Shown here piece by piece: positions 27,524-30,203 of a DNA stretch of 64,000 bases. Within the stretch, counting starts at the first letter, position 1. Each line of letters opens with the position of its first letter. This stretch comes from Runella sp. SP2. Its GTDB lineage: Bacteria; Bacteroidota; Bacteroidia; Cytophagales; Spirosomataceae. The stretch lies in the NCBI RefSeq assembly GCF_003711225.1, contig NZ_CP031030.1, positions 2,046,001 to 2,110,000 on the forward strand. The letters are read 5' to 3'. Under the pieces are notes generated by a model, which was not told the DNA's origin, did no database searches, and saw nothing but the letters and a program-made list of their open reading frames with translations. Position numbers and translations under genes: made by a program.

Positions 27524-28966
27524 TTACAATTCAAAAGTTTGTCCCTTTGTAGGGATCTCGATATTTTCGTAACCGACTGATTGTAAAGTGTTTTTAAAGT
27601 GGTCCATACTTGGCTTTTCCCCGTGGACAAGGAAGATTTTTTTTAACTCGGCAGGTGCCTGTTGCTGAACAAACGTCAGAAGGTCTTCTTTGTCTCCGTG
27701 GCCGCTAAATACGTCAATTTTTTCGATATTGGCCAATACTTGCTCGTCTTTCCCTCGAATGCGTAGTGTCGTTTGGCCATTGAGAAGCCTCCATCCGAGT
27801 GTTCCTTCGGCACAATAACCAATGAGTAAAATGGTACAGTAAGGGTTGCTAATGTTCTGAGCCACATGGTATTCGACGCGTCCACCCTGCACCATTCCAG
27901 AGGAAGAAATGATGATACAAGGCTCTACATGGTTTGAAATAGCACGGCTGGCGTCTGTACTTTCGAGGTAGATTAAATTTTCAAAGTCAAACAAGGATTC
28001 ATTCTCTTCATTAAACTCACGGGCCTCGCGGTTTAGCATCCGAACGTTCCGCTGATAGACCCGCGAGCTTTCAAAAGCAAGTGGACTGTCGGCAAAAACC
28101 TTAATGGGAGGAAGTTGCTGATTATTATATAATTTATTCAAAGTATATAATAATGCTTGGGTTCGGCCCACGCTAAAAGACGGAATAATAAGCCGCCCTG
28201 GAATGTCAACGCAGGTACGTTTGATAACATCTGCCAAAGCCAAATCAGGCGAAATTCCTTTTTCATGCAAACGATTTCCGTAAGTTGTTTCACATACCAA
28301 GAAATCAACTGGGGGCAAAGTGGCGGGGTCAATAAGTAGTGGATAGCCTTTACGGCCCACATCACCCGAAAATCCAATGGTTTTTTTCTGCCCGTTTTCC
28401 CAAACTTCAACTACGATATGTGCTGCACCTAATAAATGCCCCGCAGGGATAAAAGTAATGATGACATTGTCGGATACCCTAAAACGGCGATTGAATGCAA
28501 GTGGAACAAAGTTTTCGAGTGCTTGACGTACTTGTTTTTCGAGGTATAAATCTTTAGGAAGCTCTTTTTTTTTGCCTTTTTTTCGTTTACGTTGCGAATC
28601 CGCACTGTTCAATTCATTGATTCGCTTCTGATTCAGCATTGCTGCATCTTTGAGCAATATACTGGTTAGAGCAAAAGTAGAATCAGTACATAGTACTTGT
28701 CCTTCGTATCCATCTCGATACAAGTTTGGGATATTTCCAGAGTGATCAATATGGGCGTGAGTCAGTAATACTACGTTAATTGACGGAGCTTCAAAAGGGA
28801 AAAGTGCATTTGGAAATGGGGATGGGGTATCGTTGAGCGCGCGTCTTCGGTCGCCGCTTTCAAAATCAGAACCACAGTCAATCAAAATACGGTAATCGTT
28901 TTCCAATTCTAGGAGGTACATGCTACCAGTAACCTGTTGTGAAGCCCCCCAAAAAGTTAATTTCAT
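27524..28966 (-). CDS. Metallo-beta-lactamase/beta-CASP RNA-processing nuclease
   Basis: 480 residues. The metallo-beta-lactamase core shows LTHAHIDHSGNIPNL (HxHxDH) near residue 70 and AGHLLGAAHIV near residue 175. The beta-CASP insertion has motif A (VCETTYGNR), motif B (IIISSSGMVQGGRVEYH) and the C-terminal RMMBL segment with motif C histidines (VFSGHGDKEDLL and FLVHGE). This is the bacterial relative of CPSF-73/YSH1, acting on RNA in the cytoplasm. It heads the operon that continues with accA. A basic insert (SQRKRKKGKKKELPKDL, near residue 125) may bind RNA. Confidence 0.9.
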   Translation of the reverse strand: MKLTFWGASQQVTGSMYLLELENDYRILIDCGSDFESGDRRRALNDTPSPFPNALFPFEAPSINVVLLTHAHIDHSGNIPNLYRDGYEGQVLCTDSTFALTSILLKDAAMLNQKRINELNSADSQRKRKKGKKKELPKDLYLEKQVRQALENFVPLAFNRRFRVSDNVIITFIPAGHLLGAAHIVVEVWENGQKKTIGFSGDVGRKGYPLLIDPATLPPVDFLVCETTYGNRLHEKGISPDLALADVIKRTCVDIPGRLIIPSFSVGRTQALLYTLNKLYNNQQLPPIKVFADSPLAFESSRVYQRNVRMLNREAREFNEENESLFDFENLIYLESTDASRAISNHVEPCIIISSSGMVQGGRVEYHVAQNISNPYCTILLIGYCAEGTLGWRLLNGQTTLRIRGKDEQVLANIEKIDVFSGHGDKEDLLTFVQQQAPAELKKIFLVHGEKPSMDHFKNTLQSVGYENIEIPTKGQTFEL

Positions 28967-29111: not shown

Positions 29112-29588
29112 TTATTCTGCTAACGGAATAGGGCGGGCGATTCGTTCCTCTAAGGAGATAAATGTTTCGGTTCGTTGAATACCACCTACTTTTTGAATTT
29201 TATCGTGAAGAACTTGCCGCAGATGTTCAGTATCACGACAAACGATTTTAGCAAAAATGCTGTAAATACCCGTAGTGTAATGAATGTTAACTACTTCTGG
29301 AATACGTTCTAGCTCAATGGCTACTTCTTCATAGAGCGAGCTTTTATCTAAATATATACCTAAAAAAGCGCTAATATCCCAGCCTAATTTAGTTTGATCA
29401 ACCAATAATTGTGCCCCTTTTACAATTCCAAGCTGTTCAAGTTTTTTCATTCGCACATGAACTGTCCCTCCTGAAACATGAACCCGTTTGCCAATTTCGG
29501 TGTAAGCTAGGTGTGCATCTTCTAAAAGAAGCGCTAAAATTTTTAAGTCAGTTGCGTCAATTTTATCAATTTCTAAATTTCGTTCCAT
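29112..29588 (-). CDS. Lrp/AsnC-family transcriptional regulator
   Basis: 158 residues. The N-terminal winged helix-turn-helix (IDATDLKILALLLEDAHLAYTEIGKRVHVSGGTVHVRMKKLEQLGIV) is followed by the RAM ligand-binding domain (FLGIYLDKSSLYEEVAIELERIPEVVNIHYTTGIYSIFAKI), where amino acids usually bind and set the oligomer. The recognition helix region GGTVHVRMKKL differs slightly from the common TVxxRIxxL. A perfect 17-bp inverted repeat 18 bases upstream of its start (29607-29646) is almost certainly its own operator. Targets beyond itself may include the divergent RNA gene and the DUF819 gene. Confidence 0.93.
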   Translation of the reverse strand: MERNLEIDKIDATDLKILALLLEDAHLAYTEIGKRVHVSGGTVHVRMKKLEQLGIVKGAQLLVDQTKLGWDISAFLGIYLDKSSLYEEVAIELERIPEVVNIHYTTGIYSIFAKIVCRDTEHLRQVLHDKIQKVGGIQRTETFISLEERIARPIPLAE

Positions 29589-29606: not shown

Positions 29607-29646
29607 GATTTCATTCAACAAAAGTGCTGTTTTGTTGAATGAAATC
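29607..29646. promoter_or_regulatory. Perfect inverted-repeat operator upstream of the Lrp gene
   Basis: GATTTCATTCAACAAAA (29607-29623), a six-base spacer GTGCTG, then the exact complement (29630-29646). It is a 40-bp site with 17-bp perfect arms, located between the lrp start and the divergent RNA promoter. Lrp-family regulators commonly bind such AT-rich inverted repeats and repress themselves. Confidence 0.75.
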
Positions 29647-29673: not shown

Positions 29674-29705
29674 TTTGCAACAAAAAATAATATCCATTAG
29701 TTTTG
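29674..29705 (+). promoter_or_regulatory. Predicted promoter of the tRNA-like RNA
   Basis: TTTG (29674-29677), 20 bases, TAGTTTTG (29698-29705): an exact match to the Bacteroidota -33/-7 consensus and spacing. Start of transcription is expected near 29710, which coincides with the base of the 5' hairpin described for the RNA. Confidence 0.65.
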
Positions 29706-29709
29706 CATT

Positions 29710-30014
29710 GTCAATTAATCAAAAAAGCACTTGGCAACAAGTAAATTAGTTGACTTTAGTTCTTTATACTGTAGGATGATGAAACTTGGCAGCCATGCCC
29801 TCCTGTCTCGGGGGTGGTGAGTTCAGGATAAACACGATATAATGCCGGCACTCTAGTCGACTGGGGTAGACCACCAAACTTTGTATCGCGGCTAACTGCA
29901 CCGTGGGCGGTTCGAATCCCCCTCCTACAGCATTCATGTGAATGGTAAAACAATTACCATCACAACCCTAAGGATAGCTTGTTTAAATGATTCATTTCAA
30001 CAAGTTATCCTTTT
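29710..30014 (+). ncRNA. Structured RNA with a tRNA-like domain and oversized variable region
   Basis: Seen: a 5' hairpin (GTCAATTAA 29710-29718 with TTAGTTGAC 29746-29754, capped by CTTG-GCAA-CAAG, a GNRA loop). Then a tRNA layout: acceptor-like TGTAGGA (29770-29776) with TCCTACA (29923-29929), extended by C29769-G29930; bases TG; D arm ATG-AAACTTGGCAGC-CAT (29779-29796) with the GG and A14 of type-II Leu tRNAs; a hairpin CCCTC-CTGTCTC-GGGGG (29798-29814) in the anticodon place, reading GUC; and a T arm with loop TTCGAAT (29911-29917) whose 3' strand CCCCC abuts the acceptor strand. Between anticodon and T arms are about 90 nt with further stems (29815-29819 with 29872-29876; 29850-29856 with 29861-29867; 29887-29891 with 29901-29905). 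No CCA is encoded. The T stem has a C-C mismatch or bulge. Inferred: a tRNA-derived RNA, not a normal decoding tRNA. No known family recognised. Confidence 0.6.
29970..30014 (+). terminator. Terminator of the tRNA-like RNA
   Basis: AAGGATAGCTTGTT (29970-29983) pairs with AACAAGTTATCCTT (29999-30012), 14 bp including one G-U, with a 15-base loop and TTTT at the end. Two smaller hairpins precede it (29931-29944 and 29942-29960, overlapping alternatives). Confidence 0.7.
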
Positions 30015-30203
30015 AAAATATAAAATGAAGTGTCCAATTGACACTTATTTAAAAGAAAAACTATTTGGTTTTTAGTTTGTTGATGAAGTGTAATTGCGAC
30101 ACGCAGGCTCAGCTTTGAGGCCTGTGTGTTTTTTTTGTGCCTATACCTAGTTATTCTCAAAAGAATGGTTTATTTGCCAACTTTTCGATTTTTAACTTGA
30201 CAT

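Follow-up and report, generated by a model that had tools for sequence, protein, structure and literature searches.

What role could a tRNA-like RNA have whose loop presents the aspartate anticodon GUC, whose D arm is of the leucine type and whose variable region extends to 90 nucleotides? Such an RNA is encoded on the forward strand at 29770..29930 of the 64,000-nucleotide stretch of the Runella sp. SP2 genome (7.6 Mb) analyzed here (hereafter, the window); as delineated from the sequence and a covariance model, its mature part without CCA comprises 161 nt. The preliminary description of the locus gave 29769..29930, of which the end stands and the start lies one base further in, and took the RNA to be tRNA-derived with no matching known family. 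Our searches bear this out: over the window, there was no Rfam match at the gathering threshold, including the tRNA and tmRNA models, and ARAGORN found no tRNA or tmRNA gene. At E ≤ 10, Rfam yields 28 matches, all under gathering, those on the RNA itself being psbNH (14.7 bits) and snoPyro_CD (12.8 bits). An open-access literature search turned up no title or abstract start describing this RNA. We demonstrate below the structure, conservation, neighborhood and co-occurrence of the RNA, which represents a large conserved family and is, as an RNA, new.

The cloverleaf at 29770-29930 consists of a 7-bp acceptor stem (5' strand, 29770..29776; 3' strand together with the discriminator G73, 29923..29930), a leucine-type D arm (29779..29796) with a 3-bp AUG/CAU stem in which two of the three pairs covary, an anticodon-like arm (29798..29814) with a 5-bp stem and the 7-nt loop CUGUCUC at 29803-29809 (U33, G34, U35, C36, U37, C38), and a T arm (29905..29922) with the loop UUCGAAU, all on the forward strand. 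The core signature of the family is U8, A14, GG in the D loop and UUCGA in the T loop, and the core features of a canonical tRNA (U8, A14, GG, T loop, acceptor and T stems) are all present, as the preliminary description had it, along with the GUC loop followed by U37 and the lack of an encoded CCA at the 3' end. The C-C clash that it saw in the T stem is better read as a one-base bulge (C at 29908; GGG-C-GG/CCCCC): among the 28 rows of an alignment, 16 have extra bases in this stem (one in 14, two in 2) and 12 have a plain 5-bp stem. The variable domain (29815..29904) does measure 90 nt and has stems of its own, with compensatory changes in each of its helices; it is a layered arm of V1 (4 bp), V2 (3 bp), the internal loop GAUAAA/CUAA, V3 and an apical part. 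In the family, the internal loop reads GAYAAA/CUAA and is kept in most copies but altered in some viral ones, and the apical part varies in size, being a short loop at one extreme (L038, L042, L140) and at the other a long extension that includes an element of the approximate pattern GGGNUNGACCAC, represented in the window by GGGGUAGACCACC (29863..29875, forward strand).

Positions were tabulated in three sets. One comprises 116 distinct host sequences whose loci came from BLASTN or model searches, with no loop pattern used; the other two, of 115 host and 56 viral sequences, were retrieved with a pattern in which GUCUC is fixed. The tabulation excluded rows shorter than 100 nt, and 2 of the 289 rows could not be parsed. 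The pattern for the apical element matched 55 of the 56 parsed viral rows, 64 of the 116 pattern-free host rows and 71 of the other 115. A pairing of its GAC with the GUC of the loop was considered and remains an idea, because the element is missing from all 15 pattern-free rows without G34 but also from 37 rows with G34. An anti-Shine-Dalgarno decoy formed by the stem sequence CCUCC was dropped, given that CCUCC turns into CCGCC or CCGUC with matching changes on the opposite side.

The folding energy of the single sequence does not exceed chance (z -0.54; 53 of 200 shuffles fold equally well), and the window copy has a minimum-energy fold other than the cloverleaf. Across 121 distinct aligned rows, compensatory two-sided changes occur in each of the eight helices and in 24 of the 33 pairs, with 97.4% of the cells paired, compared with 49–56% of cells and 8–10 two-sided pairs for slid partners; in total, 636 cells carry two-sided changes that preserve pairing, all these figures leaning in favor of the structure, to which the alignment had been fitted. 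The V1 changes GGUG/CACC, GAAG/CUUC and GGAG/CUCC are also visible in an unfitted MAFFT alignment, on which RNAalifold by itself reproduces the acceptor and T stems as well as V1, V2 and V3, with covariation in 16 pairs, and favors other local pairing for the D and anticodon region. The homologue search and covariance check of the stems that the preliminary description proposed thus turned up homologues with compensatory changes. A decayed tRNA-Leu pseudogene with random insertions could draw on the leucine-type D arm and on the weak scores, up to about 57 bits, that the model gives to ordinary tRNAs, but is at odds with the pairing-preserving changes and with the wide distribution of the family; already refuted by the covariation, this reading has a negligible probability.

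Using a covariance model built from 28 diverse copies, we obtained strong matches (E ≤ 1e-18, counted by hand) in 139 of 194 genomes of the order and in 40 of 395 genomes of a phylum sample; the raw tallies, 166 of 194 and 301 of 395, include weak matches to what look like ordinary tRNAs. The strong count omits a 76-nt form in genome G047 (64.8 bits) and a contig-split copy in G049, which was nevertheless entered as RNA-positive in the table of relatives used below. In the phylum sample, scores fall from 85 bits to the 65-bit form of G047 and then to tRNA-sized matches of at most 57 bits; in viral loci, such matches coincide with tRNA-Leu, tRNA-Asp and tRNA-Glu genes called by ARAGORN. With BLASTN alone, 42 of 59 related genomes gave matches, which beyond the genus were mostly confined to the RNA region. 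Tandem arrays are common, with six copies in L130, L131 and L141, five in L129 and L207, and four in L128 and L145.

Several loci show unusual forms. The 76-nt relative in G047 (L144, 1839-1914), with the loop CUAUCUC, U1, G73 and almost no variable domain, is perhaps a shrunken form. In L110, two partial copies (975-1042 and 1293-1360) retain part of the variable domain and the start of the T arm without the acceptor and anticodon-like arms, and belong to a unit a few hundred bases long that is repeated downstream of an intact copy. Separately, a tRNA-Val cluster of the host (L045, G000:C1:1632400-1633300) includes three normal copies and four units, one of them 5'-truncated (counted by eye), that share an identical GC-rich insertion in the T-arm region, some of which ARAGORN still calls as tRNA genes; this looks like a small insertion spread by duplication.

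The family extends to viruses. A pattern scan of IMG/VR gave 88 stretches with 80 loci listed, and all 80 listed loci match the covariance model with at least 86 bits. ARAGORN, run on 41 viral loci, detected at least one tRNA or tmRNA gene in 26, at least five in 14 and a tmRNA in 9. Ten long ORFs from ten viral loci matched terminase (3), DNA polymerase (2), primase/helicase, RNA ligase, ATPase and GroEL, with one weak match of unknown function as the tenth, which indicates that at least most of these ten are viral. BLASTN with the window copy found no match among INPHARED phages or PLSDB plasmids.

What could recognize the RNA is suggested by its conserved positions. In the accessible part of PMC9976931, the AspRS determinants are given as G73, G34, U35, C36 and C38, the amidotransferase determinant as U1-A72 with G1-C72 and U20a as antideterminants, and aspartate identity in bacteria is said to depend crucially on G1-C72. 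All five AspRS determinants are present in the window copy. For positions 34-38, only the pattern-free host set is informative because the pattern behind the other two fixes GUCUC. Among its 116 sequences, many of which are close relatives or tandem copies and which were found in part with a model built from sequences with these bases, U35, C36, C38 and G73 are invariant, G34 is present in 101 (A, U or C in the other 15), U33 in 99, and position 37 is U in 107, C in 7, G in 2 and never A; altogether, 30 deviate from U33-G34-U35-C36. AspRS recognition should weaken in the 15 sequences without G34. The acceptor end UGU...ACA-G is likewise invariant, with U1, G2 and U3 and the pair U1-A72, in place of the G1-C72 of bacterial tRNA-Asp, in 116 of 116; U1 also occurs in 114 of the 115 other host rows and 55 of the 56 viral rows, and two viral rows, one of them L320, change the third pair (TGG...CCAG) while keeping U1-A72 and G2-C71. 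The two normal tRNA-Asp(GUC) genes of the host have G1-C72, and its tRNA-Asn has U1-A72. The D loop GGCAG presumably puts A at 20a by class II numbering. If G1-C72 is as crucial as stated, U1-A72 could lower charging with aspartate. A non-discriminating AspRS acting on the host tRNA-Asn, which has U1-A72 as well, is a possible alternative route.

Canonical decoding tRNAs have a conserved U33 and a purine at 37, and this family departs from both. An ordinary tRNA-Asp isoacceptor with an oversized variable arm would agree with the GUC anticodon, the U33 of most copies, the intact tRNA core and the viral copies beside tRNA genes. Nevertheless, normal tRNA-Asp genes are present in the host and also in the viral loci L313 and L322, more than a quarter of the pattern-free sequences (30 of 116) are off U33-G34-U35-C36, position 37 is never A, the D arm is of the leucine type and the first pair is U1-A72 rather than G1-C72, so that we regard a decoding role as very unlikely. 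The preliminary description had called GUC a mismatch for any decoding role: the RNA is indeed probably non-decoding, but the mismatch is not meaningless, given that GUC matches the AspRS determinants.

The neighborhood of the RNA gene points in the direction of asparagine. On the reverse strand, at 29112..29588, an ORF divergent from the RNA gene encodes an AsnC/Lrp-type transcription regulator (Pfam AsnC_trans_reg, 1.6e-18; best NCBIfam match AsnC PRK11179, 157 bits against a cut-off of 227). Of 215 distinct loci, 159 have a divergent AsnC-type gene upstream, at most 374 nt away from the core (median 199), with products 47–100% identical to that of the window; because loci were merged only when the 200 nt around the core were identical, close relatives weigh in these counts. 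The neighbor is missing at the other 56 loci, 47 of which had at least 900 nt of upstream sequence. Among 23 RNA-less genomes, the best AsnC relative shows 57–58% identity in G340 and G224, 50% in G038, 39–48% in ten members of families f25 and f26, and at most 32% in seven, and is absent in three; that is, 13 have relatives of 39–58% and 10 none above 32%. In E. coli, asnC is divergent from asnA. By eye, one AsnC relative in G274 is divergent from an ORF whose start resembles that of a glutamine-dependent asparagine synthetase, and no AsnC-like ORF start lies alongside the AsnA loci L356-L361.

Read by eye, a probable Bacteroidota-type promoter, TTTG-N20-TAGTTTTG, precedes the RNA gene at 29674..29705 on the forward strand; the Bacteroidota consensus is TTTG / TAnnTTTG, and -7 boxes similar to that of the window were seen by eye in several relatives. 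The region that separates asnC from the RNA gene contains a 17-bp inverted repeat (29607-29646; 6-nt loop), varied in close relatives, which is possibly an AsnC operator. Downstream, on the forward strand, an AT-rich hairpin, AAGGAUA...UAUCCUU, followed by a U-rich stretch (29969..30013), may be a processing or termination signal, and a conserved 30-nt box, TTTGGTTTTTAGTTTGTTGATGAAGTGTAA, is followed, by eye, by a GC hairpin and a T run (30064..30136); a terminator scan reported neither hairpin. With up to 6 mismatches allowed, the box was found at 56 of 215 loci, where it follows the RNA core at a distance of 137–314 nt and is nearly letter-identical in many cases; its region has the look of a small RNA in its own right or of a conserved 3' tail. 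A beta-CASP metallo-hydrolase with an RNA-specificity domain is encoded at 27524-28966 (best NCBIfam matches below cut-offs), and its cluster is an upstream neighbor at 13 loci. As judged from ORF clusters and first residues only, recurrent neighbors other than AsnC differ by lineage.

The RNA also co-occurs with GatB, from which the presence of GatCAB was judged. All 40 RNA-positive genomes of the 395-genome phylum sample encode GatB. Among the 65 listed genomes of the host's class, 23 have both, none has the RNA without GatB, 3 (G263, G371, G415) have GatB without the RNA and 39 have neither (Fisher p 1e-14, phylogeny ignored), with 74 and 43 further non-matching genomes lying outside this table; the association also holds within families f23 and f24. 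Beyond this class, GatB without the RNA is the combination in most genomes, as would be expected wherever GatCAB serves tRNA-Gln or tRNA-Asn. Among 39 relatives, the RNA is present in 26 of the 28 that encode both GatB and GlnRS, the exceptions being G002 (83% complete) and G021; GlnRS makes GatCAB dispensable for Gln-tRNA, and it is in such genomes that the RNA is nearly always found. Eight relatives have GatB without GlnRS: four carry the RNA (G044, G045, G049, G050), G047 carries the short form, and G037, G038 and G042, which would need GatCAB for Gln-tRNA, carry none. The three relatives without GatB all lack the RNA.

The host itself encodes AsnRS, GlnRS and GatB, and a profile search of its genome found no AsnA and no AsnB above the cut-off, the best AsnB-model match reaching 52.8 bits against 267 and covering model positions 1-180 of 517. 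Among 16 RNA-positive genomes tested for both synthetases, 10 have AsnB over the cut-off, 4 have AsnB-like matches of 168–229 bits, and only G000 and G017 have nothing above 53 bits; AsnA-type matches occur in 5 of 35 RNA-positive genomes (G064, G161, G221, G379 and, below the cut-off, G045) and in 1 of 22 RNA-less ones. Given AsnB in many RNA-positive genomes, an RNA-based route may be one of two, and two parallel asparagine routes are discussed for GatCAB in other bacteria in the accessible part of PMC4206432.

The preliminary description suggested a regulatory mimic sensed by a synthetase or RNase P. Nothing that we found points to an RNase P decoy. The synthetase part is plausible in a specific form: AspRS, perhaps also GatCAB, would bind or charge the RNA, and the charge would report on aspartate and asparagine supply and control AsnC, AspRS or other targets, the RNA then being no metabolic carrier. 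The conserved AsnC-type neighbor, the AspRS determinants and a large variable domain whose conserved internal loop could accommodate a partner are all compatible with such sensing. The tandem arrays of up to six copies and the viral copies beside tRNA genes, however, fit a dose-dependent carrier better, and sensing alone does not explain the GatB link, so that we consider it unlikely. As for a passive mimic, the neighborhood and GatB suggest asparagine formation instead.

Because determinants for both AspRS and GatCAB are combined on one RNA that has an AsnC neighbor and a GatB link, we lean, with modest confidence, toward a non-decoding, tRNA-derived carrier for tRNA-dependent asparagine formation. 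The transcript would be trimmed like a pre-tRNA and receive CCA, after which ordinary AspRS, reading G73 and G34 U35 C36 C38, would load aspartate and GatCAB, reading U1-A72, would amidate it to asparagine on the RNA. An asparagine carrier with an aspartate anticodon would mistranslate and so needs to be kept from the ribosome, perhaps by the large variable domain, the non-A37, the relaxed U33 and, in this copy, the bulged T stem. More speculatively, the asparagine could be released or passed on, to be available to AsnRS and for general use; to supply bulk protein synthesis, a carrier would have to turn over fast and would hence need a releasing activity, for which no enzyme is known. The divergent AsnC-type regulator would adjust the RNA to asparagine status, and the phage copies, many of them beside tRNA genes, might support asparagine supply in infection. 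Against the carrier count the AsnB of most tested RNA-positive genomes, the 15 of 116 sequences without G34 and the presence of U33 in 99, as well as the RNA-less genomes with GatB or with AsnC relatives and the 56 of 215 loci without the AsnC neighbor.

Aspartate or asparagine on the RNA could also be destined for a non-ribosomal product, such as a cell-wall bridge, a lipid or a peptide. The non-proteinogenic tRNA-Gly of staphylococci is a precedent, and the AspRS/GatCAB determinants, the non-decoding look and the carriage by viruses would suit a dedicated donor; with no transferase-like gene among the recurrent neighbors, as seen from ORF clusters and first residues only, we hold this to be distinctly unlikely.

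Returning to the carrier for asparagine formation, a bolder version, to which we give somewhat less than an even chance, is that of a recycled RNA cofactor: AspRS, the RNA and GatCAB would together replace asparagine synthetase, with the RNA gene taking the place, divergent from an asnC-type gene, that asnA has in E. coli, and the phage copies would be metabolic helper genes. If so, this would be a tRNA that evolved to make an amino acid, not to decode, and a whole branch of Bacteroidota would make asparagine on a non-decoding RNA carrier, which would explain the persistence of GatCAB in Bacteroidota that have AsnRS and GlnRS. The metabolic and decoding roles of tRNA would be separated, which bears on theories of the growth of the genetic code, and viruses would show that a phage auxiliary metabolic gene can be an RNA. 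Should the function be a different one, the family is still strongly supported and missing from Rfam and tRNA annotation.

Among known systems, class II tRNAs such as tRNA-Leu share with the RNA the leucine-type D arm, the long variable region, the L-shape signatures and weak model cross-matches; tRNA-Leu has the discriminator A73, whereas the RNA has G73, a NUC loop and a much longer, structured variable domain with a conserved internal loop. Like tmRNA, the RNA is tRNA-like, non-canonical and present in hosts and viruses, but it has D and anticodon-like arms and U3-A70 in place of G3-U70, the alanine determinant of tmRNA; a substitute for tmRNA is ruled out, since tmRNA is present separately in 38 of the 39 relatives and elsewhere in the host genome. 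Allo-tRNA, selC* tRNA-Cys and tRNA-Sec have forms of the 8/4 and 9/3 type. They too are natural odd tRNAs with long variable arms, with lengthened acceptor stems or branches, whereas the RNA here is 7/5 with a bulge, and the accessible part of PMC7609411, on tRNAs of odd architecture, makes no mention of it. The closest parallel to the proposed function is the indirect asparagine pathway, AspRS and GatCAB acting on tRNA-Asn, which agrees with the RNA in the expected enzymes, U1-A72 and G73; in a survey, as given in the accessible part of PMC4206432, 18 of 547 genera had AsnRS, GlnRS and GatCAB without AsnA/B, with Bacteroidetes among the clades. In that pathway, the carrier is a decoding tRNA-Asn and a non-discriminating AspRS is required, whereas the RNA described here seems to be non-decoding and, with its aspartate loop, could make do with an ordinary AspRS; the system as a whole would represent a variant of tRNA-dependent asparagine formation that uses a purpose-built carrier.
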